Shown here: positions 7,549 to 22,733 of the stretch, piece by piece
Layout: each line of letters opens with the position of its first letter
Position numbering within the stretch: the stretch's first letter is position 1
From: a virus
Virus record (IMG/VR): IMGVR_UViG_3300021139_000104
Span: 1-28,254 of that record
DNA: 28,254 nucleotides
Reading direction: 5' to 3' (one strand)
Position numbers and translations under genes: made by a program
Notes under the pieces: generated by a model
What the model saw: only the letters and a program-made list of their open reading frames with translations
Told to the model about the DNA's origin: nothing
Databases searched by the model: none

Positions 7549-7655
7549 TGCTCTTCTCCTAGTTCATCATGCAATGTATCTGGATCTTCTTCCAGTTCTT
7601 CTTCATCTATATCATGGGCGAGGTCATCGCCACTCATCCACATAGGTTCACTCAT
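7545..7655 (-). CDS. 36-aa very acidic protein
   Basis: Begins at a TAATG junction with the amidotransferase gene and ends at an ATGA junction with the next one. Sixteen of 36 residues are Asp or Glu, and only His among basic residues is present. Such short acidic proteins can mimic DNA or act as inhibitors of host proteins; here that is only a possibility raised by composition. Confidence 0.65.
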   Translation of the reverse strand: MSEPMWMSGDDLAHDIDEEELEEDPDTLHDELGEEQ

Positions 7656-8518
7656 TAGTAATCCCAACTCTTGTTAGACCAGCCTTTGGTTACACCAGTA
7701 GCTGTAACGTATTTATCTTTGCCCATGCTGTTGTACTTACACAAGCATGAGAAGGCATCAGATGAACAGTCAAAGCAATAGGCACAATAGAAGCAAGTAA
7801 AGTCATTGGCATCTAGTGTTGCTTCATCTATGAACTGATCACATGATGGACATTGGTATGTCTCTGTTACTCCATCAAAGTAATCATAGTCATTCTTGCT
7901 TACCCATGTACTGACACCCTTAGACTTACGAGGATCAGCATAGCCATAGTCTAGGTAGCATGAATCATTAGACCACCACACGCCTGACTTATCTTCCTTA
8001 CCAAGGTCTTGGTTAAGAAGATAGCATTCGTGCTTAGCACGTGGATCAACAGTAAGTACAGCCACCTTGGAACCAGCGGTGTACTCTTCTAACATCTCCC
8101 ATGTGTAGTCATTATCTAGTGCTGCTACTCCACCAATGGTAGGTAGAATATCTTCAGCAAAGATACGGGTATCAGATCTATCATCCTTATCATGTGGAGT
8201 GACAGGCAAGATACCATTGTGTGCGATGTGAGTACGCTCATCATCGCCTAGTGTAAATGGATGACAGTTAGCTACAATACGTGAGCCATGTGTAGCATAA
8301 CGAGCATGCCACATAGCATAGCCTTCCATGTAATAGCTACGCATTTCTAAGAACCTGTTAACAGATTCATCAGCGTCCATTGTACGCTCACGTAGGATAC
8401 GCTTCTCATCTGGTATTACGATAGAGAATCCATACCCATGTGGGTTGTTGAGTGCAGAATTAACCAGCTTATCTCTATCAGGTATAACTCCGGGTGGTAC
8501 TACGCATAACATACACAT
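7655..8518 (-). CDS. Class II glutamine amidotransferase (Ntn hydrolase)
   Basis: 287 residues. Cys2 directly after the start Met is the N-terminal nucleophile of the family. W-H-A-R-Y-A-T-H-G (70-78), C-H-P-F (85-88) and H-N-G-I-L (100-104) match the glutamine-binding blocks. It would release ammonia from glutamine. The C-terminal third carries C-P-S-C and a C-F-Y-C-A-Y-C-F-D-C cluster, an added zinc-binding module not part of the amidotransferase fold. AAGGAG lies 7 bases before the start, which overlaps the stop of the amidoligase gene. The pairing suggests it supplies ammonia for that enzyme or edits its product. Confidence 0.85.
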   Translation of the reverse strand: MCMLCVVPPGVIPDRDKLVNSALNNPHGYGFSIVIPDEKRILRERTMDADESVNRFLEMRSYYMEGYAMWHARYATHGSRIVANCHPFTLGDDERTHIAHNGILPVTPHDKDDRSDTRIFAEDILPTIGGVAALDNDYTWEMLEEYTAGSKVAVLTVDPRAKHECYLLNQDLGKEDKSGVWWSNDSCYLDYGYADPRKSKGVSTWVSKNDYDYFDGVTETYQCPSCDQFIDEATLDANDFTCFYCAYCFDCSSDAFSCLCKYNSMGKDKYVTATGVTKGWSNKSWDY

Positions 8519-9855
8519 TAGTTCTCTCCTTGGTCTTCGATTAGTAGTTCTTCTTTGTCGAACAGTTCGTTCATGATAATGAACAGGTTAGGATATGTAT
8601 CGCTATGCTCTGACACATAGGCTACAAACCTAGTCCAAGACAACGGTTTATGTTTGACCGACATCTTGAGATCACGAGTGTATTCAACAGCAGCATGAAC
8701 AAGTTCTATTGCTGATAGCACACGCTCGTAGCGCAGTGAACCACGGAACACTCTGACTTCTAGTGTTGCGTCGTTCTCTATGTTGATGGCAGCATACCTG
8801 CCATTGGATTGCTCACCATTCTTAACCTTAGGTATGATCTTACCTTTGTCACCGAAGGTAGCATAGTTAGATGAACGACCAGCAAGTCTAGTGATTTGCC
8901 GTTCGTTGTCATAGATAAGTTTCATGAATCTAATCTGATGAGACTCACGCAATGTAATAGTACCACCGCTGAATGCTGAACGTGATACGTGTACATGCAA
9001 GCCACAAGTACTAGTGTTCCATGACCTGAACCTACGAGATTTAAGTTTGCTTAGTATGTCAGCCCATGGGAAACTCTCTTGCATTTCCACAAGAGAATGT
9101 GGATGGGTAACTATCTCGAAGCCATAGGACAATGAACCATCTGACTTAAGATAAGCACGGTCACCATAGCCAGTCTTACTAGCTACGTAATCAACCACCT
9201 CATCGAAGTAGTCTTCATCACGACACTCAACCTCAAGCTCGACACCAAAGTAATACTTGGCGTCACCATGAAACTTAGGTCGTGGTTTGTAGCTGTAGTT
9301 GTGGATGTTACTGTTGCTTTCTGGATCATCACGTTCACATGTATGATCTTCTAGAACATAATGATGGTCCTCATAACCACAATCATTACAACTATAGTAT
9401 CTTTCTTGATCACAACGTGGACAGATAGATTCACCTAGCCAATTGCTATAGGTAAGATCATCTTCACTAGGCACTAGTGTTTCACATTCGTGACACATGA
9501 TAGCGTCGGGGTTTTCATCTGACCAAACAACATAGCAATCTTTACACATGTCGTTGTTCTCAACGTTCTCAAACCCACCCCATGGCTTGCGTTTATTACA
9601 AGCGTCACAAAACTGAGTACATGAGTAGTGCATGATAGTTTGATCTTCTAATGTGTATGGTGCCCACATATTATTTTCATGTTGACTAGCACGTATGCTG
9701 TTAGTCATGTAGTAATGACGATAGGTGTTGTCCCAATCTAATCCAATAGGATAGATTGTTAACTTACACCTTGGACATTCACCTAGCGATGGTGGCACTG
9801 GGTGCTGCTCTTCTGTTATCTGATCCACTGATGGATCATCTATTACATCAGGCAT
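8518..9855 (-). CDS. Amidoligase (COOH-NH2 ligase) with N-terminal zinc ribbons
   Basis: 445 residues. The C-terminal half is a glutamine-synthetase-fold amidoligase: Y-Y-F-G-V-E-L-E-V-E (201-210), S-D-G-S-L-S-Y-G-F-E-I-V-T-H-P-H (238-253) and C-G-L-H-V-H-V-S-R (284-292), the metal and ATP blocks. The first 180 residues contain at least five CxxC knuckles (near 27, 83, 104, 121, 145 and 156), probably several zinc ribbons for substrate binding. Comparative work on phage amidoligases links them with class II amidotransferases and suggests peptide or cell-wall modification. AAGGAG precedes ATG by 6 bases. The substrate is unknown. Confidence 0.88.
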   Translation of the reverse strand: MPDVIDDPSVDQITEEQHPVPPSLGECPRCKLTIYPIGLDWDNTYRHYYMTNSIRASQHENNMWAPYTLEDQTIMHYSCTQFCDACNKRKPWGGFENVENNDMCKDCYVVWSDENPDAIMCHECETLVPSEDDLTYSNWLGESICPRCDQERYYSCNDCGYEDHHYVLEDHTCERDDPESNSNIHNYSYKPRPKFHGDAKYYFGVELEVECRDEDYFDEVVDYVASKTGYGDRAYLKSDGSLSYGFEIVTHPHSLVEMQESFPWADILSKLKSRRFRSWNTSTCGLHVHVSRSAFSGGTITLRESHQIRFMKLIYDNERQITRLAGRSSNYATFGDKGKIIPKVKNGEQSNGRYAAINIENDATLEVRVFRGSLRYERVLSAIELVHAAVEYTRDLKMSVKHKPLSWTRFVAYVSEHSDTYPNLFIIMNELFDKEELLIEDQGEN

Positions 9856-10723: not shown

Positions 10724-10737
10724 GTTAGTCTCCTGTC

Positions 10738-10767
10738 GATATAAAGCTAGCCGTTGTGGCGTAGCAA
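10738..10767 (-). promoter_or_regulatory. Possible leftward promoter after the SSB terminator
   Basis: TTGCTA (10762-10767 read on the minus strand) and TATATC (10738-10743) are 18 bases apart. Each matches four of six consensus bases. A promoter is expected here because the strong terminator just upstream would otherwise silence the genes to the left. The match itself is weak. Confidence 0.25.
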
Positions 10768-10788
10768 TTTCTAGTCTGGGGGTGCGGT

Positions 10789-10827
10789 AAAAAAAAAGAG
10801 AGGCGAGTGAGCCGAAGCCCACCCGCC
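10789..10827 (-). terminator. Strong Rho-independent terminator after SSB
   Basis: On the minus strand an 11-bp stem with two G-U pairs is capped by TTCG, and the stem is followed by TCTC and nine T. It lies 10 bases after the SSB stop. This is the clearest terminator of the leftward block and makes the SSB message short. Confidence 0.95.
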
Positions 10828-10837
10828 AGTCTTGAAG

Positions 10838-11131
10838 TTAAGCAACCACCTCGATAGCAGATACTTGGATCTGCGTGAATGGCTTGAAGCGTTGGTCATT
10901 AGCGATACCCGGACGACGATCGAACCGAGTAACCAAACGACCGATGATTTGTACATGAGTATCAGCTGTTAAGCCGAGAGCACTGTCGCCGTTGTCGATG
11001 AATACCAATGGCATAGTAGTTATACACTTACCTTCCTCGTCACGTTGTGAGAGGTTAGCAGTTACGATTGAGCCTGTGTTGCCACGTGATGTGATGTTCT
11101 TGATGTTACCTGTTAGTGTTACTGTATTCAT
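10838..11131 (-). CDS. ssb-like: Single-stranded DNA-binding protein-like OB fold
   Basis: 97 residues from ATG 11129-11131, with AAAGGAG 6 bases upstream. The sequence opens M-N-T-V-T-L-T-G-N-I and continues with alternating strands: I-V-T-A-N-L-S, a turn, T-M-P-L-V-F-I, then V-Q-I-I-G-R-L and a final strand, the order of an SSB OB fold. It lacks the long disordered acidic C-terminal tail that bacterial SSB uses to recruit partners. It has its own likely promoter and leader hairpin before it and a strong terminator after it, which would allow high expression independent of the other genes. Confidence 0.8.
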   Translation of the reverse strand: MNTVTLTGNIKNITSRGNTGSIVTANLSQRDEEGKCITTMPLVFIDNGDSALGLTADTHVQIIGRLVTRFDRRPGIANDQRFKPFTQIQVSAIEVVA

Positions 11132-11161
11132 GTTTATCTCCTTTAGTAGTTTATTGGTTGA

Positions 11162-11200
11162 GGCGACTGCCCCTGCCGTTAGGCACAGGGACAGTCTGCC
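11162..11200 (-). promoter_or_regulatory. Leader hairpin of the SSB message
   Basis: On the minus strand GACTGTCCCTG pairs with CAGGGGCAGTC (one T-G pair), two further G-C pairs close the top after a 2-base bulge, and three more pairs extend the base. The whole lies between a TATAAT box and the SSB ribosome-binding site, so it would form at the 5' end of the RNA. No T-run follows. It could stabilise the message or be a site of control, for example by SSB itself. Confidence 0.55.
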
Positions 11201-11207
11201 TGTATAG

Positions 11208-11213
11208 ATTATA
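11208..11213 (-). promoter_or_regulatory. Consensus -10 box for the SSB gene
   Basis: The minus strand reads TATAAT exactly, inside the last codons and stop of the 40-aa gene. No good -35 hexamer is found at 16-18 bases (TAACCG is the nearest). With a start point about 7 bases downstream the RNA would begin just before the leader hairpin. Confidence 0.5.
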
Positions 11214-11336
11214 CTATGGTTGGACAAGTTCGGTTACTTCGTCCAGTGTGTATCCAGCACAGTACGGACAACCGTCTGTGTCGTTACAGTTATCAAGCAT
11301 TTCTTCTGCGATGATACGTGCTTGGTCTTCGTTCAT
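11214..11336 (-). CDS. 40-aa Cys-containing protein
   Basis: GGAGG lies 7 bases before ATG, which overlaps the stop of the zinc-ribbon gene as ATGA. The product is acidic and has Cys17 and a C-P-Y-C knuckle near 23-26, flanked by helical stretches (E-E-M-L-D-N before, L-D-E-V-T-E-L-V after). Three cysteines could hold a metal with help from another chain. The family is unknown to me. Its 3' end carries the -10 box for SSB. Confidence 0.7.
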   Translation of the reverse strand: MNEDQARIIAEEMLDNCNDTDGCPYCAGYTLDEVTELVQP

Positions 11337-11725
11337 GCGTCTGCCTCCTGACAGGTTGGACATGTGATACGGCGAGCGAGGAAGGTTAGGTTACACCAGT
11401 TACAGACTGCTTCTGTTGGTAGTAGTTCGAGGTCACGGCTATCTATTCTGTCAGCCAGTTCAACGATAGGTTCCGTGAACTCTTCACGCTCGCCCTTGGG
11501 CGTACGCGTGAGAGGGGCAACCCAATCGTGACCGCTTGGCTCGGTAGTTATGAGCCATTGGTTACGGTATTGGATGTTGCCTTCGTCCACGATTTCGTGG
11601 GCGAGTATGGTTTGGTTGGTATCGAATATTTCTTGGCACTCAGTACAGCGTTCGCCAAAGAGTTCGAGTGTTTGCCAGCATTTAGCACAGCTGGTTACGA
11701 TATTCATACCTGTATCTTCTGTCAT
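11333..11725 (-). CDS. Double zinc-ribbon protein, 130 aa
   Basis: 130 residues with two CxxC pairs near the N-terminus (C-A-K-C and C-T-E-C, around 13 and 27) and two near the C-terminus (C-N-W-C and C-P-T-C, around 108 and 122). These make two zinc ribbons either side of an acidic, strand-rich middle. It is the first gene of the leftward block after the long non-coding region, the place of an immediate-early gene. It may bind DNA or RNA polymerase. ATG 11723-11725 has AGAAG upstream; an ATG six codons later is an alternative. Confidence 0.75.
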   Translation of the reverse strand: MTEDTGMNIVTSCAKCWQTLELFGERCTECQEIFDTNQTILAHEIVDEGNIQYRNQWLITTEPSGHDWVAPLTRTPKGEREEFTEPIVELADRIDSRDLELLPTEAVCNWCNLTFLARRITCPTCQEADA

Positions 11726-11794
11726 GATCTTCTCTTTTCTGTTTGATACGCACCCGATTTGGATACGCCATTATCAGGACTCCTAAGTCATGCC

Positions 11795-12395
11795 CCCGAG
11801 CCCGCGGGGCGGGCGTCTGAGGGCGAAGCCCGAGGGAGGGGGATGCGGGCATGGCGCCGAAGGCGACAGGCTAGAGAGCATGGATTTAGCGAAGCGGTGC
11901 GAGCGCGTGGCTTTTTGGACACGCGGCGGCGAGCAATCCTGCGAACAAGCACAGTCCGCGCAGCGGACTTGACGACGGAGTACGATAAGGGCACCGTGAG
12001 AGGACAGCATTGATCCGCACGCCGAAGGCGTAAGCGGTCATATGCTGAACAGGGCGGGGCGTGGCGTATCGGAGCGAGGAAGCCGTAAGAGCTGACGAGC
12101 CCCCATACGACAGCGATGGACAACGTCCGAGCGTGCGCCAGAGCGGGGAACCGCGAAGCGCCCGTGATCCGACTGTCACTGCGGACTGCAGGTACCACCT
12201 GCCAGCCACCGTCAGAATAAAAACATTTTGTTTGGCTGGTAAAGGAAAGTAATTTACTTACAGCGCCCCGAGTCATGAGACGATGGGGACAGTCAGCACT
12301 CCTACGTCGCCAGCCATACTGGGACAGTCTGACTGTCGGGCTTGACCCGCCGGTTATTAAACCAGCCACTGATTTAAGTGTGACTGTCTGCCTAG
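11795..12395 (+). ncRNA. Candidate large structured non-coding RNA, about 600 nt
   Basis: This gene-free stretch is much richer in G and C than its neighbours and packed with compensating helices. Clear ones are 11800-11814, 11821-11831, 11855-11865, 11904-11925, 11953-11969, 12118-12128 and 12188-12202. A nested stem at 12005-12047 has 6, 4 and 5 bp around a GAA loop. At 12135-12161 a two-part stem is capped by GGAA, and 12081-12093 is capped by GUAA; both are GNRA loops only when read on the plus strand, and loops there are A-rich, so plus is the likely sense. GACTGTC (12171-12177) can pair with GACAGTC (12288-12294). GACAGTC (12323-12329) can pair with GACTGTC (12382-12388) around three small hairpins. 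Size and phage setting recall GOLLD and ROOL, but the family is unassigned and the ends are approximate. Confidence 0.6.
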
Positions 12396-12405
12396 AATTT
12401 TCTGG

Positions 12406-12414
12406 TGGTATACT
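12406..12414 (+). promoter_or_regulatory. Extended -10 promoter for the late genes
   Basis: TGG directly before TATACT gives an extended -10 box with five of six -10 bases matching. No clear -35 lies 16-18 bases upstream, which extended -10 promoters can do without. It faces the terminase gene across a 230-base leader full of small hairpins. Confidence 0.45.
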
Positions 12415-12430
12415 GGACTGGTATGTCCTA

Positions 12431-12630
12431 GTTTGTCCCTATTTAGGGACCAAACACAGTAGTAAGGGAAAATATATTTCCCACACGAAACGTTCGTTTC
12501 GGCTGTTTGAACGGGTTAATACTATATAGAGCAGTAAATACTGCTACTGCTATTCGCAGGCTTTTATATAGCCTGCTCATACTGTTACAGAACAGTAACT
12601 GTACAGACAGTGTAGATGGGGATAGTCTAC
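12431..12630 (+). other. Array of eight short hairpins before the terminase gene
   Basis: In 200 bases without a gene there are eight short inverted repeats in a row: 12431-12455, 12466-12482, 12486-12501, 12530-12545, 12556-12576, 12581-12596, 12598-12611 and 12612-12630. Arms are 5-10 bp with loops of 2-15 bases, and most are exact. ACTGT/ACAGT recurs in two adjacent ones. It may be a structured 5' leader, the 3' part of the neighbouring RNA, or a DNA site for packaging or replication. Confidence 0.6.
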
Positions 12631-12644
12631 CTAAAAGGGGCACA

Positions 12645-14543
12645 ATGGCAGGAAAAGGATTTGGTACGGGAGCTGACCATTTCAAGGTCAAAGCTCTAGC
12701 CGAGGCTAAGGCAAAGGTGATCTCCCTTGTGGAGCAGGGGGCAACTACCCACCAAGCCATGACAGCCGTCAATAAGAAACCCGATACCCTCAGACAATGG
12801 ATACTGCGTGACTCCGACTTTGCGGAAGCTTTAGCTGAAGCAAAGGAGCGAGGCGAGTCAACTTCGTTGGCGAGTATCGGTAAAGACAAGTCTGAACTAC
12901 AGTTCTCAGAATTCTCCAAAATTTTTTTAGGGCAGCAAGTATTCCCTCATCATCAGGACTGGGTGGATCTGCTAGAGGCTAGGGAGCCTTCTTGGTTACA
13001 CCCCTCTATGATCTACGAGCCAGCCGAACGTCACCGTCTGTTGGTGAACGTTCCTCCTGAGCATGCCAAGTCCACCGTCATTACGGTGAACTACTCGACC
13101 TACCGTATCGCCCTAGATCCCAACATTCGAATCATCGTAGTTTCGAAGACCTTAGTCAAAGCACGAGAATTCGTGTACGCAATCAAGCAACGCTTGTCAC
13201 ACCCTAGATGGCTCAAGATGCAGAACGCATACGGACCTGAGGGTGGCTGGAAACAAGACGCAGATACTTGGCGAACTGACACGGTATATCTTGGGGGCGA
13301 TGCGCGTAACTCCAGTGAAAAGGATCCTACGATCCAAGCACTCGGTATGGGTGGTCAGATCTATGGAGCACGTGCGGATCTGATCATCCTCGATGACTGT
13401 ATTACTACCGCCAATGCCCATGAGTGGGAGAAGCAGATTAACTGGCTTCAGAAAGAAGTTATCACCCGTCTGGGTAAGAACGGTAAGCTACTCGTAGTAG
13501 GGACGCGAATTGCGGCTAATGACCTTTATAAAGAACTTCGTAATCCTAAGCATTGGTCTGGTGGCAGGTCTCCTTTCACTTATATGGGTATGCCGGCTGT
13601 ACTTGAATTCGCCGAAAAGCCAGAAGACTGGGTCACACTCTGGAAAGAATCTGATGTCCCTTGGGACGGAGATGACGACATCCCGCCCAATGAACGTGGA
13701 TACTACCCAAAGTGGGACGGATCAGCGTTATACAAGCGCCGTTCAGAAGTTACTCCTTCTACGTGGGCTCTTGTCTACCAACAAGAAGACATCCAAGAAG
13801 ACTCAGTATTCCCACCAGCATTGGTACAGGGATCAGTTAACGGGGCTCGAAGAGTCGGACCTCTAAAGCCCGGAGCAATGGGGCACCCTAAAGCTGTAGA
13901 TGGCTATACCGTTGTAGGTATGGACCCAGCTATTGCTGGTAAGACTGCGCTAGTCGCACTGACCTACAACAAAGCAGATGGCAAGATCTATGTCCTTGAT
14001 TGCCTCAACATGGCAGAAGGTAACTACCAAAAGATCCGTGCTGCTATTGAAGCCTATACAGAACGTTACCGACCACAAGAAGTGCGTATTGAAATCAACG
14101 CCTTCCAGAAAGCATTTGAACTCGATGAAGACTTACGGAATTGGCTTGCAGGGCGAGGAGTTAGATTCAACTCCCACTTCACAGGCAAGAACAAATGGGA
14201 CACAGGATTCGGTGTCGCTAGTATGTCAGCATTGTTCGGATCGCTTAGGGATGGGGTCCATCAGGATAACAACCTTGTGGAACTTCCTTCGTCAGATGGC
14301 TCAGAAGGAATCAAAGCTTTAGTACAACAACTGATCACATGGAAGCCAGACACCAAAGGTCCTACGGACTGCGTCATGGCTATGTGGTTTGCGGTCATTC
14401 GTGCCCGTGAAATGATTCAAAAGAATACCAATGTGTCTCCGTACCTCACAAATAGGTGGGCTACTAGGTCGCAAATGGAATCTAGATACTCAATCAATCT
14501 CGACGATGCTTTTGCAGAGCAGTGGTCGGATCAATTCGGATAG
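12645..14543 (+). CDS. terL: Terminase large subunit with N-terminal helix-turn-helix
   Basis: 632 residues. The ATPase half has a Walker A-like N-V-P-P-E-H-A-K-S-T (135-144) and Walker B L-I-I-L-D-D (246-251), and the nuclease half starts with V-V-G-M-D-P-A (423-429) holding the first metal-binding Asp, with I-E-I-N near 482. It translocates DNA into the prohead and cuts the concatemer. Residues 22-70 form a helix-turn-helix-like stretch (A-T-T-H-Q-A-M-T-A-V then T-L-R-Q-W) of the type usually found in small terminase subunits; no separate small subunit gene is seen nearby. ATG 12645 is chosen for AAAGGGG 5 bases upstream; the frame is open further back, but only through the hairpin array. 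Confidence 0.95.
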   Translation: MAGKGFGTGADHFKVKALAEAKAKVISLVEQGATTHQAMTAVNKKPDTLRQWILRDSDFAEALAEAKERGESTSLASIGKDKSELQFSEFSKIFLGQQVFPHHQDWVDLLEAREPSWLHPSMIYEPAERHRLLVNVPPEHAKSTVITVNYSTYRIALDPNIRIIVVSKTLVKAREFVYAIKQRLSHPRWLKMQNAYGPEGGWKQDADTWRTDTVYLGGDARNSSEKDPTIQALGMGGQIYGARADLIILDDCITTANAHEWEKQINWLQKEVITRLGKNGKLLVVGTRIAANDLYKELRNPKHWSGGRSPFTYMGMPAVLEFAEKPEDWVTLWKESDVPWDGDDDIPPNERGYYPKWDGSALYKRRSEVTPSTWALVYQQEDIQEDSVFPPALVQGSVNGARRVGPLKPGAMGHPKAVDGYTVVGMDPAIAGKTALVALTYNKADGKIYVLDCLNMAEGNYQKIRAAIEAYTERYRPQEVRIEINAFQKAFELDEDLRNWLAGRGVRFNSHFTGKNKWDTGFGVASMSALFGSLRDGVHQDNNLVELPSSDGSEGIKALVQQLITWKPDTKGPTDCVMAMWFAVIRAREMIQKNTNVSPYLTNRWATRSQMESRYSINLDDAFAEQWSDQFG

Positions 14544-17032: not shown

Positions 17033-17475
17033 TGGCAGGACAACAAGGCGGTTACCGTCAGCCAGCTAATCCAGCTCCCGTCTCAGGACCGGGTGCTCTC
17101 TCACAACGTACCGATGGTGGCGCCGTAGACGGCATGCAACCAGCACAGACACAAGCTCCTAAGTACATGCCGGGTCTTGGTTACGGTAAAGGCGGAGAGA
17201 ATATGGCTAACCAACAATCTGCACCGTTAGCTGGCTCACCTACACCACAAATGCCTGCACCTACAATGCCTGCAGTTCCACTATCTGCGCCAACTATGCG
17301 CCCTAACGAACCTATTACTGCTGGTGTTGACTTTGGTCCGGGTCCGGGATCAGAAGCAATTCAGATTCCTAATCAAGCAATGTCACCTAGCCATACAATT
17401 AAGCGTATTGCACAAGCGGATCCTAGTGGAGAGTCTGAGCTTCTTTACAGAGCGTTACTTGACAGAGGTCTCTAA
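17032..17475 (+). CDS. 147-aa Pro/Ala/Gln-rich protein
   Basis: Starts at a TAATG junction and ends at another one with the giant gene. The first 110 residues are Pro, Ala, Gly and Gln-rich with no predicted fold, containing short repeats such as M-P-A-P-T-M-P-A. The final 30 residues look helical (I-K-R-I-A-Q-A and S-E-L-L-Y-R-A-L-L-D-R-G-L). Such chains often serve as flexible adaptors or cargo tags in virions. It is probably co-translated with the giant protein. Confidence 0.75.
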   Translation: MAGQQGGYRQPANPAPVSGPGALSQRTDGGAVDGMQPAQTQAPKYMPGLGYGKGGENMANQQSAPLAGSPTPQMPAPTMPAVPLSAPTMRPNEPITAGVDFGPGPGSEAIQIPNQAMSPSHTIKRIAQADPSGESELLYRALLDRGL

Positions 17476-20400
17476 TGTCATTTAATCAACCGCTACCCGG
17501 AGCGAATGGGTTAAACCCACAAGTTGCTCTGGAGAACCCTTCAATTTATGTAGCTGCTAGTACGATTCCTATGAATCAACAGCAAGCTAACCATGTTAAC
17601 CAGATTTCTGCTATCATTTCTCGAAACGCACAGTTGATGAGTATGGATCCTAAGGTTGCTCAAAAGCAATATTCCTCTATGGACCCACTAGTCCAACAGC
17701 AACTTAAGTCTTTCTATCCTGACTCCAACTACATGAAGCCACCTCAAACAAATATTGGGTTGCGTGTACTAGGAGATGTAGTAAGTGGGGTTACTAACCC
17801 ATTTAAGTGGGCATTCAAGAACGTTACAAATGTCTACAACCGTTTGCTTCCAGTCAATACAGCATATCTTATTTTAGATCAGATGGGTCAGGGAACTCCT
17901 CTTAGCTGGAACATGGTTCACAATGCTTGGGACGGCAAAGAACTTTACAATAACAAAGACCTTGCTGCGCTTCATGCTAAGTATGGAAACACAGATACCT
18001 TTGTAGCAATGAAGTTGCTTGATGGTATGCCTCTTGGCAAGATCATTGATGCCTATGGAACAACTGGTTCTGACATTATCAACTCTATTGCCAAGGTAGT
18101 TGACAACCCTCAAGAGACATCAAAGATGTTGGCTGAGTTCAAAGCCTCACAACTATCTGTTGGTCGAGACATTGGTCGAGCATTCCTTAATGGTACTCCT
18201 GCAGACAACAAGGCATTTAGTAGTGGCTGGTGGAAGTTTGGTACCGGTGTCGGTGATGCTGCTGCTCAGATCTTTGGTGACCCACTAACATATGTTTCAG
18301 GCGGAACATCCAAACTTATTACTAGCGCAGACAAACTTGCTGAAGCACTTAAGGCTGGCACAAAGACTGTAGCTGAAGTATTTTCTCGTCCAGAAATGCA
18401 ACGTACATGGAATGAAGTTGCTGGACCTTTAATTGAAAGACTGGCTTCTGCCCGTTATGGAGACAAAGCAAACATTCAAACTGCTGCTGATATCCGTAAC
18501 GAACTTGCTCGTCAATTCCCTAACATGAACAACGCAACAGTTATGGATGAATTGGCTAGAGCTAAAGTATTTGATGCTCCTTCAGCTCAAAAGTTCTTTG
18601 AGCAACCAGAGATGATGACCAACCTTCTTGCTGGTCGCGTAGATGGAACAACATTCTTCCGGACGGGTATCCCTGTTGCAAAGCGTACCAACGCTATCTC
18701 ATCCAAGGTCAATAAAATGGCTAGTGACTTCTTCAATGGAGTTGCTTCAGATGAGCAAAAGCAATCATTTGGTAATTTAATTGATGATGTCCGCAATATT
18801 GGCGGAGACAAATCACAGCTTTTCAAAGACGGAGTTCTTAAGTCTCAAGTAAGTACCGAAGGTTTGGAAGCAAACACAGCACAACTTAGCAGCGTACGAG
18901 CTAAGATTGGTAGACTTGTTGCTCGATTCCCCGGTAACGCACCTATCGATGTTACAGATGAGGGCGTAGATAAGAGCCTATCTCAAGTTAATGCTCTGTC
19001 TCGTTTCATTTATACCAAAACATTCTCTGATTACTTTACAGAAGCTTTCAAGCAATCTACACAAGCAGACCGCGTGCTATTGCTACGCGGACTATACGTG
19101 CAGATCATGCACAATATGGCTCTTCATGCTACACCACAGGGACAAACTCTTATGGAGAACATCCTTAAAGAGAAGTTTGGTGAGTCAGCAGGTTATCAGA
19201 CAGCCAGAGATGTACAAGTTCCAATGCATTTGATGAACGACCTACAATCTTCTGTTGGCATGCTTGAGAAGCCTGTAGGAAAAGGCAATCAACTAGCCCG
19301 TTATAACTACAAAGGTATTGTCCATAACTATCAGAGTAAGCCACAAATAGGTAATATGCCTTGGCACCTGCTTAGCGATTATGGATTATCTATTGGTCAG
19401 AAGGCTGGACACAAAGCTGCTATTGAAGCAGTGGGTGGACATACAGCACGTGTGTTTTCTCGTCACATGGTTAACGGTTGGTCTACTGCTACCCTGTTTC
19501 CACGTCTAGGAATACGTGCATCTCTTGACGAGATGATGTTCTACAGCCTTTCTCACCCTATTCAAGACCTACTTAACTTTGGTTTGGGTCGCAAGGTCAA
19601 CAAGATTGTTACAGCATTCAGCGGTAGCGATGACTTGATCCCTCTTGCTAAGAAGAAGTGGGGAACTGCTACCTCAGAGATTGCTAAAAAGCTTCGTGGC
19701 GATGCAGCACCTGCAGAACTGAACCCATTTACTCGTACAGTTGCTAACTGGCTAGACCAGAACCCTGCTCATCTCCTATCGGATGAGGCTAGAATTAAGA
19801 CTACTCAGCTTAATGGCGAAGATCATTTTGAATTACAGGACAAAATGACTATTGCTAACCAGCTTGAGAACTACATGCGTCACGTTTTGCCTAGAGGCAA
19901 AGCAGTTATCAATGAGGCTGGCGAAAAAGTTTATCCTAAGCAAGACCAAATGATTGATTATGTCAAGCAGCTTCTTGTCCACACAGATGGCGAGATGAAC
20001 TCAGCACTTATCAAATCTTCTCTTGGTCGCAGTGCTAGAGATATCCGCAAGAACCCACTTTATGCTGAAGACTTTACTGATCGCAACCTTTTGAACAGGG
20101 CATTGGCTGATCTTAAGTTCGTACCTACGGGTAAGTATGACATGATGGACAAGGAATCTTTGGATCGCATCCATGGATCCATGTATTCCGTGGCTCACTA
20201 CAAGAACTGGTTCCTAGGTTTCCTACGTAACGGCAAGAACTACGGTGCTGGATTTTTTGATCCGGGTTCTATCTTCATGAAGCATGGAGCATTGGGACGT
20301 GAAGGCGATCTAATGAAAGCCGTCAACGATTCTCTTGAGAAGATCGGCATTGATCCAGAAGCATTGACAGTTAAGAACCAAAAGGCTTTTGATGCTTTCA

Positions 20401-22733
20401 TGCACAGCTCTGGTCAGCACGTTGTTGACGTGGCAGATGGACTATCTCCCGTACAAAGTGCTATTAACCGCCTAGAAGCTATGTATCTAGACCTACATGA
20501 GATGTTTCATGGGGGTACCGCTAATGCATTTAACAAAGATTTATACGACCATATCATCAACAGTGCTAAGGAAATCCAACATCAGGCAACTGAAGAGGGT
20601 ATCAATAGCATGTCTAAATCTGCTGCCGTTCGTAAGGCAATGCAGGGTATTGACTATGCTACCTTTGATAAGCTCACTAAAGAGTACAAGCCAGTAGGTG
20701 CTATCAATACGGACCTTAACGCTGATAGCTTTACCAAGGATCTTAGCAATGAAGGCTTCATGCTTAAGATGGCTACATGGGCAAAGCATGCACCAGATCA
20801 GGCTATGGAGTGGATGGATGCTCAGAACCAGCACATCTTCCGTCAGCCAGCCATGTTTGTTTCCTACATTAAACTCCGTCAGGAGTATGCAAAGCTAGAA
20901 CAACAGCATGTGGCTAACCTTATCCGTGCCAATGGTTGGACTAAAGACTTTGCCACCATGATTGCCGAGAAGAAGTTTACCGAGATTGCTCGCACTCAGG
21001 CTACAGATCTTACCCTTAAGAGCATTAACAACCCTGAGATCCGTTCTAACCTAGCTTGGACACTACGTACCACAGGGCGTTTCTACCGGTCTGTAGAGGA
21101 CTTCTACCGCCGTTTATGGCGGCTTAAGGATGTTACCCCACAGGCTCTTTATCGCCTGCGTATGGCAAGCCTAGGGCTGAATGCCAGTGGTTTCGTACAC
21201 CCAGATCAGAACGGTGACCCGTATCTGATTATGCCAGCAGACAATGTCTTGTTCCATGCTATGCAAGGTGGGATGTCTCTGCTAGGTGCTGATCCTAAGC
21301 AGCCTTTGTTTGATAACTTTGCTATGAATCTAACAATGTCTAACCCTACATTGAACCAAGATGCTGGTATGCCTAGCCTTCAAGGTCCATTCGTTGGGCT
21401 TAGCGTTAAGCTAGCACAGGGTCTACTTAGTACATTTGGTGGATCAGAAGGTGCTGCGCTATCTCAAAACCTCAGCAAAGAGATCATGGGATCTGTTAAT
21501 CAGAACCTTACATGGACTGGAGCTATTGTTCCTACCTCTTTACAGCGTGTATGGAACATGATTGATCTTCCAAGTAGGAGCAGAGAATATACATCTGCCT
21601 TTGCATCTGCTGTTGCCTACAATGCAGCTACTGGTCATGGTCTAACACAGGATCAATTGAACCAAATGGTAGATGAGTCTGGTCGTCCAGATGTAGCAAA
21701 GCAACAAAATGCTGTAACGGATTACATGAATAAGATACGTATTACAGCACACAACATTATATTTATGCGTGAGTTCTTGGGACTATTGTCCCCTATCACG
21801 CCTACACTACAACCATCTGTAGGTGTACCTAACTATCTTAAAGATGCAGGTGTTACTAGCCTACGTCAAGAGTTTAATGACATACTTCAAGAGAACTATA
21901 CATTGTCTCAAGGTAAGCTTCAGGATCCATATGGCTATTCATTGATGATGTTTGCTAAGAATAACCCGGGATTGCTAGCCTATACAGTCTCTCCTACAGT
22001 TAAAGATACTGCATTATCCATTGCCTATACCAAGGAAAATGAAAACTGGATAGGTGCAAATAAGGGTGCTATCGACAAGTATGGCAATGCTGCCTTGTTG
22101 TTTGCTCCACACATCGGCAAGTTTGATGCCAATGCTTTTGCTTGGATGGAAGCATCCGGTCTTGTTAAGAACAAAGACCTAAGAGATTACTACACACAGG
22201 TATCTTTAGCAGCAGCAAGTACGCAATACAGTGGATTGAATTCAGATCTTGCAGCAGCAATGGGTAACCCTGATCTAACTCCTGTACAAAAGCAGGAAGT
22301 TATGAACTATGTACGGGGTAGAAAACAACAAATCTTGATGGAGTATCCAGCCCTTAAGATCCAGTTAGATAACCCTGTAAGCGGTGGTACTGGTGCATCC
22401 GAGAAGATGTTCCAACAACTACAGACTATCCTTGCCAACAATGATCTACCTATGTCTGCTGGTGTAAAGACTAAGATGCAGGTAGTTAGCAACCTTGTTG
22501 CTGGTGCTATCTATGACATCAAGTCTATAGATCAGAACCCTACTGGCGTTGATAAGACCCAGTCTAAAGAAGCTATTAAGAACCGTACTATTGAAGCGAT
22601 CCGCAGAATTGGACTAGCACAGGGTACTAAAGAGATCATGGATCCTATTGTTCAACAGGCATCCAAGAGTATCTTCACCCCTCTACTTGATTCATTGGTA
22701 CGCAATCCGTCAACCATTCAGATAGGGAAATAA
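17475..22733 (+). CDS. Giant 1752-aa putative internal virion / ejection protein
   Basis: The largest gene here, a fifth of the window. No signal peptide is seen, and the chain is almost wholly helical in character with many Gln, Asn, Lys and Ala. A Trp/Phe-rich segment near residues 95-125 (P-F-K-W-A-F-K-N-V) could contact membrane. Segments such as L-F-P-R-L-G-I-R-A-S-L-D-E near 675 and R-F-Y-R-S-V-E-D-F-Y-R-R-L-W near 1205 recall large internal virion proteins of podovirus-like phages and polyvalent proteins ejected with DNA. An H-G-G-T motif near 1014 lacks the companions of a known enzyme. Placement between portal and scaffold fits a protein carried in the head. The function is inferred from size, place and composition only. 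Confidence 0.75.
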   Translation: MSFNQPLPGANGLNPQVALENPSIYVAASTIPMNQQQANHVNQISAIISRNAQLMSMDPKVAQKQYSSMDPLVQQQLKSFYPDSNYMKPPQTNIGLRVLGDVVSGVTNPFKWAFKNVTNVYNRLLPVNTAYLILDQMGQGTPLSWNMVHNAWDGKELYNNKDLAALHAKYGNTDTFVAMKLLDGMPLGKIIDAYGTTGSDIINSIAKVVDNPQETSKMLAEFKASQLSVGRDIGRAFLNGTPADNKAFSSGWWKFGTGVGDAAAQIFGDPLTYVSGGTSKLITSADKLAEALKAGTKTVAEVFSRPEMQRTWNEVAGPLIERLASARYGDKANIQTAADIRNELARQFPNMNNATVMDELARAKVFDAPSAQKFFEQPEMMTNLLAGRVDGTTFFRTGIPVAKRTNAISSKVNKMASDFFNGVASDEQKQSFGNLIDDVRNIGGDKSQLFKDGVLKSQVSTEGLEANTAQLSSVRAKIGRLVARFPGNAPIDVTDEGVDKSLSQVNALSRFIYTKTFSDYFTEAFKQSTQADRVLLLRGLYVQIMHNMALHATPQGQTLMENILKEKFGESAGYQTARDVQVPMHLMNDLQSSVGMLEKPVGKGNQLARYNYKGIVHNYQSKPQIGNMPWHLLSDYGLSIGQKAGHKAAIEAVGGHTARVFSRHMVNGWSTATLFPRLGIRASLDEMMFYSLSHPIQDLLNFGLGRKVNKIVTAFSGSDDLIPLAKKKWGTATSEIAKKLRGDAAPAELNPFTRTVANWLDQNPAHLLSDEARIKTTQLNGEDHFELQDKMTIANQLENYMRHVLPRGKAVINEAGEKVYPKQDQMIDYVKQLLVHTDGEMNSALIKSSLGRSARDIRKNPLYAEDFTDRNLLNRALADLKFVPTGKYDMMDKESLDRIHGSMYSVAHYKNWFLGFLRNGKNYGAGFFDPGSIFMKHGALGREGDLMKAVNDSLEKIGIDPEALTVKNQKAFDAFMHSSGQHVVDVADGLSPVQSAINRLEAMYLDLHEMFHGGTANAFNKDLYDHIINSAKEIQHQATEEGINSMSKSAAVRKAMQGIDYATFDKLTKEYKPVGAINTDLNADSFTKDLSNEGFMLKMATWAKHAPDQAMEWMDAQNQHIFRQPAMFVSYIKLRQEYAKLEQQHVANLIRANGWTKDFATMIAEKKFTEIARTQATDLTLKSINNPEIRSNLAWTLRTTGRFYRSVEDFYRRLWRLKDVTPQALYRLRMASLGLNASGFVHPDQNGDPYLIMPADNVLFHAMQGGMSLLGADPKQPLFDNFAMNLTMSNPTLNQDAGMPSLQGPFVGLSVKLAQGLLSTFGGSEGAALSQNLSKEIMGSVNQNLTWTGAIVPTSLQRVWNMIDLPSRSREYTSAFASAVAYNAATGHGLTQDQLNQMVDESGRPDVAKQQNAVTDYMNKIRITAHNIIFMREFLGLLSPITPTLQPSVGVPNYLKDAGVTSLRQEFNDILQENYTLSQGKLQDPYGYSLMMFAKNNPGLLAYTVSPTVKDTALSIAYTKENENWIGANKGAIDKYGNAALLFAPHIGKFDANAFAWMEASGLVKNKDLRDYYTQVSLAAASTQYSGLNSDLAAAMGNPDLTPVQKQEVMNYVRGRKQQILMEYPALKIQLDNPVSGGTGASEKMFQQLQTILANNDLPMSAGVKTKMQVVSNLVAGAIYDIKSIDQNPTGVDKTQSKEAIKNRTIEAIRRIGLAQGTKEIMDPIVQQASKSIFTPLLDSLVRNPSTIQIGK

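Follow-up and report, generated by a model that had tools for sequence, protein, structure and literature searches.

Two adjoining non-coding elements, a candidate structured RNA and a predicted genome-end module, precede the terminase gene of a freshwater actinobacterial phage

The window analysed in this study is an entire IMG/VR viral contig of 28,254 bases, linear and incomplete, whose source is a freshwater actinobacterial phage. A non-coding region separates a leftward operon on its left, which includes genes for a primase, a helicase, an exonuclease and a sigma factor, from a rightward operon on its right, in which the large terminase gene comes first and is followed by portal and capsid genes (Table 1). 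The terminase displays weak matches to nuclease-domain families. Elsewhere in the window, neighbouring genes at 7655-9855 gave glutamine amidotransferase-like and amidoligase-like matches, while a protein of 1752 aa (17475-22733), encoded between the portal and capsid genes, has no Pfam, PHROG or PDB match, its sole relative in the phage collection being a protein of Planktophila phage E7 with 27% identity.

Table 1. Features of the non-coding region and its bordering genes (positions in the window)
Feature	Position	Strand	Remarks
First conserved gene of the leftward operon, left border of the non-coding region	11333..11725	-	130 aa, weak zinc-ribbon match
Conserved block CACC..GATGTGAA.ACGCGTA	11750..11773	.	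directly left of the 5' domain; kept in 15/16 type I relatives
5' domain, candidate structured RNA 'type I', about 430 nt	11774..12210	+	3' end uncertain
Helix P1, 5' strand (ACTCC..GTCA), long-range	11774..11790	+	alignment, consensus fold
Helix P1, 3' strand (TGAC..GGAGT)	11970..11987	+	begins conserved motif GGAGTAYGATRRRRGCRCCGYRGGAGGAC
Nested hairpin of the original prediction	12005..12047	+	predicted fold and alignment
Motif 1, TTGACCCGCCGGTTATTAA	12342..12360	+	GACC invariant in 59 aligned relatives; once in window; matched in Streptomyces podoviruses
Motif 2, CTGTCTGCCTAGAATTTTC	12384..12402	+	aligns with GTG^AGTCCCCATAAATTTC; predicted terminal repeat end about 12386/12387
Hairpin A, GGGAAA-ATATA-TTTCCC	12466..12482	+	arms vary, complementarity retained in several relatives (by eye)
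Pseudoknot-like or inverted-repeat motif CGAAACGTTCGTTTCGGCTGTTTGAAC	12486..12512	+	GTTC 12492-12495 pairs with GAAC 12509-12512
Hairpin C	12556..12576	+	changing complementary arms; conserved UC/UC internal loop at flank
Terminase large subunit	12645..14543 (ATG 12645)	+	weak N-terminal helix-turn-helix match

The original prediction had described positions 11795-12395 as GC-rich relative to the flanking genes and devoid of a plausible protein, and both descriptions hold: GC content reaches 0.58-0.63 between 11701 and 12300, most of the 300-base windows on either side having 0.40-0.50 (about 0.45), and the sole long frame is an overlapping minus-strand ORF of 193 aa (11788-12369), which was rejected as a protein because no conserved frame, and indeed no conserved gene, occurs in the corresponding gap of the relatives. 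When the window sequence was folded alone, it scored z values of -2.2 on the plus and -2.5 on the minus strand against dinucleotide shuffles and 0.0 against base shuffles, which is barely above the controls, and the case for structure therefore rests on the relatives; the strong evidence for the putative structure is comparative and is not drawn from the window's own fold. The region is GC-rich, protein-free, foldable and evolutionarily conserved, but it appears to consist of two adjoining elements, a 5' domain and a 3' module, the latter occupying about 12250-12640.

The comparison set comprised approximately 190 relatives, with 80 loci obtained through a terminase search and at least 120 viral contigs through a pattern derived from a conserved motif; a Paenibacillus match of this pattern was discarded as a chance match within a permease-like gene. 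Of 180 copies of the 3' module, 176 are followed by a related terminase that begins within about 120-420 nt, and the gap without conserved genes to the left of the motif has a median length of 644 nt (5-95% range 326-983; 65 relatives). Leaders of 60 non-redundant relatives have predicted folding energies with a mean z of about -4 relative to shuffles on both strands. Two other observations concern the sequence just upstream of the terminase: in L063 and L081 a tRNA T-arm-like sequence, GGGGTTCGATTCCC, follows the 3' module, for which ARAGORN calls no tRNA, and in L017, L023 and L027 a DnaA box-like sequence, TGTGGATAAC, was noted by eye.

The 5' domains of the relatives are of several unrelated kinds. 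The kind present in the window, type I, is marked by the motif GGAGTAYGAT...GGAGGAC and occurs in about 16 distinct relatives, at 515-824 nt to the left of the pseudoknot-like motif. Its consensus fold is multi-branched, with compensatory changes in 15-16 relatives, and its score is -120.9 for the plus strand and -110.6 for the minus strand, compared to -17 to -31 for column-shuffled alignments. The long-range helix P1 illustrates such changes, its letters differing yet staying complementary: CTCC-TAA-GTCA with TGAC-GAC-GGAG in the window, AATGTCA with TGACATT in L028/L210, CCTTGTCA with TGACAAGG in L207/L211, and ACTCG with CGAGT in L048. Taken together, P1 and P2 are 83.7% paired, against at most 43% when slid, and contain 19 both-side changes against 7.2. 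Compensatory base changes, the general criterion for a structured RNA, are present at this locus, although a tree-based covariation test gave a divided result: three pairs of hairpin C in the 3' module reached E < 0.05, while no single pair passed in the 16-sequence alignment of the type I domain.

Some helices drawn in the original prediction survive this comparison and others do not. The nested 43-base stem is part of the predicted fold and its arms are compensated in the alignment, with CAGCAT/ATGCTG in the window against CAGACAGAT/ATCTGTCTG in L016. GNRA-like loops occur in the window (GUAA near 12085, GGAA near 12148), but relatives carry UUUA, GAA, GGUA, GGCA or GGAU at these places, and the window's C(GAA)G triloops likewise give way to other loops elsewhere. 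The consensus fold lacks the four-way junction at 12323-12388, within which the predicted genome end would fall. The boundaries shift accordingly, the RNA-like part being re-set from 11795-12395 to a span from about 11774 to near 12200-12210. The conserved block that precedes this span may act as a promoter for the RNA, for the divergent early operon, or for both. A terminator at the proposed 3' end of the RNA was rejected, as no terminator enrichment was found there. At 12119-12129, about 262 bp left of the predicted cut, the window contains GGACAACGTCC, which recalls the GGACT^GTCC start of the Streptomyces repeats; it is not conserved in relatives and is a lead only.

Folding asymmetry, purine loading and wobble pairing were assessed with RNase P from genomes of the host order as a control. 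Folding of the 5' part favours the plus strand (z difference -0.54 +/- 0.26), as does that of RNase P (-0.69 +/- 0.23), while the 3' part displays no plus-strand preference (+0.37 +/- 0.20). The 5' domain is rich in purines on the plus strand, as RNase P RNA is. Purines make up 66-75% of unpaired bases from 11778 to 12197 and about 50% from there to 12557; shuffles of the window reproduce this composition, which was for that reason dropped as evidence of structure, and since the figure follows from base composition it indicates purine loading of the strand, as in a transcribed strand, rather than structure. These data support the suggestion that the 5' part behaves like a plus-strand RNA. Wobble counts are without a clear RNA signal: in type I helices chosen by Watson-Crick pairs, 43 G-T and 53 A-C pairs were counted, against 49 and 14 in RNase P, and under stricter filters the ratio of G-T to A-C was 11:5 in type I and 13:7 in RNase P.

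These counts are the main reason why we retain, as an unlikely alternative, the view that the entire region acts at the DNA level, as a terminal repeat and concatemer junction in which hairpins formed by the single strands would serve repeat duplication or packaging, and that no functional RNA is made. Folding that is about equally strong on both strands would suit this view, as would the lack of a wobble excess in the first test and the presence of C(GAA)G loops, which are unusually stable as DNA. Nested, multi-branched folding in which compensated helices lie 200 nt apart would be unusual for DNA, however, and the plus-strand preference and purine loading of the 5' part stop sharply at approximately 12200.

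The original prediction further held that the region is a giant structured RNA comparable to GOLLD and ROOL, possibly extending as one molecule to 12630. A large, conserved, non-coding element with compensatory changes is present, and its 5' part resembles a plus-strand RNA, but membership of an Rfam family was not borne out. No Rfam model matched: scanning the window returned nothing in the region, whether at gathering scores or up to E = 5, and the sole listing, a snoRNA of 16 bits located outside it, falls far short of its cut-off. Among the relatives, ten were scanned with gathering thresholds and yielded no family, and in a permissive scan of ten no score came close to the cut-off of a family. 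The full Rfam scans included the covariance models of ROOL, HEARO and OLE, none of which matched at the gathering score or with E raised to 5. When six records were searched directly with the GOLLD model, the best score was 5 bits, far from the locus, and no tRNA gene, closeness to which is a GOLLD criterion, was found in the window or at 18 related loci. As the full and targeted searches were empty, membership of GOLLD, ROOL, HEARO or OLE was rejected; the last three resemble the window element in being large structured RNAs without a protein product, but differ from it in that it has no Rfam match.

GOLLD (RF02032) is composed of a conserved 3' and a variable 5' part (PMC12286853), and the element described here is similar in this layout and in being large, phage-encoded and lake-associated. 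It differs in that no covariance-model match was found in the window or in the related phage records, the RNA-like part amounts to about 430 nt, the 3' part has the look of a DNA module, a neighbouring tRNA gene was not found, and the two parts differ in strand signature and are separable. A single giant RNA of the GOLLD/ROOL type, spanning 11774-12640 with a variable 5' and a conserved 3' half, would account for this layout and for the similar spacing of the parts in 16 relatives; we regard it as improbable given the empty Rfam searches, the shift of strand signature at about 12200, and a 3' hairpin array that also occurs without the 5' part and whose core matches a genome-cut site at a repeat boundary. 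The best reading of the 5' domain would be a rightward, uncatalogued structured RNA of about 430 nt belonging to a family outside Rfam. A literature search found no paper describing this element, which does not prove that none exists.

The 3' module is universal in this terminase clade, strand-symmetric and far more conserved than the 5' domain. It contains GACCC..TTAA, CTCTACC.A.AATTTTC..TATAGT, a hairpin, the pseudoknot-like motif and hairpin C. In the pseudoknot-like motif the GTTC/GAAC pairing is retained in 82 of 82 sequences, with a change of UA to CG in nine, and all seven pairs of hairpin C change on both sides. Over the named pairs of the module, the 82 sequences contain 184 both-side changes, compared to 62.6 when shuffled and at most 35 when slid. 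A role as a general promoter motif was rejected, as the pseudoknot-like and GACCC motifs recur in the window no more than by chance. Most copies have their last hairpin within about 20-70 nt of the start of the terminase, which would fit a long structured 5' leader controlling terminase expression; such a leader is nevertheless quite improbable as an explanation of the whole region, since unrelated 5' domains precede near-identical terminases and copies of the 3' module exist without a terminase.

Further information on the 3' module can be deduced from cultured phages. The nearest of these by terminase are two Planktophila phages (61% identical), followed by Streptomyces Beephvirinae (43-46%). 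The isolated Planktophila phages LanE43AprE7 and LanE43AprF5 (PMC10202952) carry the 3' module upstream of the terminase, with both motifs and the pseudoknot-like element, but differ from the window phage in being AT-rich and in having another 5' part. Direct terminal repeats of 253-274 bp are present in five of six Beephvirinae records, each ending GAGTG^AGTCCC, while the sixth, Abafar, is listed with a repeat of 396 bp and with its ends shifted by about 10 nt. The five are records L217/L218, L220/L219, L221/L254, L222/L255 and L216/L256, and 1.1-1.5 kb of unannotated DNA lies left of the repeat in the four that could be joined.

The core of the module, 12342-12402, matches the place where the repeats of the Streptomyces podoviruses end in these five records. 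The repeat end falls within the leader segment that scores best with a two-block profile of the freshwater module in each of the five Streptomyces leaders tested, and also in the two Planktophila phages; this score exceeded all 100 shuffles in four of the five Streptomyces leaders, and homology is also supported by synteny. In the Streptomyces loci no match of model R2 attained E 5, and the homology is therefore graded as good but not overwhelming. The Beephvirinae share with the window a non-coding junction between leftward early genes and the terminase, and the motif GACCCGGGGGTTGTTAA-n-GTG^AGTCCCCATAAATTTC; they differ in terminase sequence and in a repeat region that is not strongly folded, on which account the Streptomyces leaders were rejected as carriers of the same RNA. 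A modest excess of contig ends within 700 nt upstream of the terminase was set aside as evidence of a genome end, being explainable by strain variation. By homology with the repeats mapped in the Streptomyces records, the genome end of the window's phage is predicted near 12386/12387. Since the 3' module is strand-symmetric, is found without the 5' domain and has a core that matches a repeat boundary, it most likely represents a genome end or packaging signal together with a late leader.

The two elements are also separable in nature. In L003, whose terminase is 97% identical to that of the window, the genome is colinear on both sides, but different sequence takes the place of 10737-12343, a stretch that covers the 5' domain and two small early genes; the junction coincides with the module border. 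On these comparisons the 5' domain appears to be exchanged among phages like a cassette. Conversely, the 3' module occurs without the 5' domain and without a terminase in two genomes of the host's Nanopelagicales-type order, tail-to-tail beside a lone tyrosine recombinase (integrase). Relatives of the recombinase are present in 22 of 296 genomes, and the module was found at two (L260, L198) of the 20 recombinase loci checked. These two recombinases (L260:4711-5841 and L198:151-1211) are 80% identical to each other; the gene in L260 adjoins a tRNA-Lys gene and the L198 element lies beside argG, the whole resembling an integrative element of roughly 1.3 kb with a captured phage packaging/end signal.

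A 3' core homologous to a mapped end of a terminal repeat and the capture of the module next to integrases without the RNA part would both be expected if the region functioned purely as DNA, while a Streptomyces repeat that is not strongly folded would not. A further alternative is a packaging RNA like that of phi29, one encoded next to the genome end which joins the packaging motor. Cassette exchange with unrelated domains would be odd for a motor part, and the weak nuclease-domain matches of the window's terminase have no known counterpart in phi29; the proposal is accordingly highly improbable. In its favour are the position next to the terminase and the predicted genome end, and the description of the Streptomyces relative Abafar as a podovirus (PMC11536984). 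The phi29 RNA is likewise encoded beside the genome end and packaging functions, but differs in size and terminase type.

Employing these comparisons, we consider it probable, by a modest balance, that the region holds two adjacent elements, a 5' structured plus-strand RNA outside Rfam and a 3' cis-acting DNA module. The RNA would extend from 11774 to about 12210, probably starting in the gap shared with the leftward operon, and would adopt a multi-branched fold and act in trans. The DNA module, from about 12250 to 12640, would provide a genome-end/packaging site with the predicted cut near 12386/12387, and the sequence after the cut site may serve as late leader and probable promoter of the terminase operon. 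As the RNA is swapped together with neighbouring small early genes, a role in host takeover or counter-defence is favoured over a fixed virion function, and we put this role forward tentatively. It is a more doubtful proposition that freshwater actinophages reserve a site beside the genome end into which large structured RNAs of unrelated kinds can be exchanged, and that tiny integrative elements of the host, in which an integrase and a captured phage end module are all that was recognised, use the module for packaging by these phages.

To our knowledge, few families of large phage RNAs have been recognised. The locus described here provides a caution, in that hairpins conserved as an array next to a candidate RNA need not belong to the RNA and can instead be a signal for packaging or the terminus. 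The candidate RNA is clearly bounded and is naturally swapped between phages that are otherwise nearly identical, and two cultivated phages of a dominant lake bacterium carry the module; both the expression of the RNA and the packaging role of its neighbour are therefore testable.
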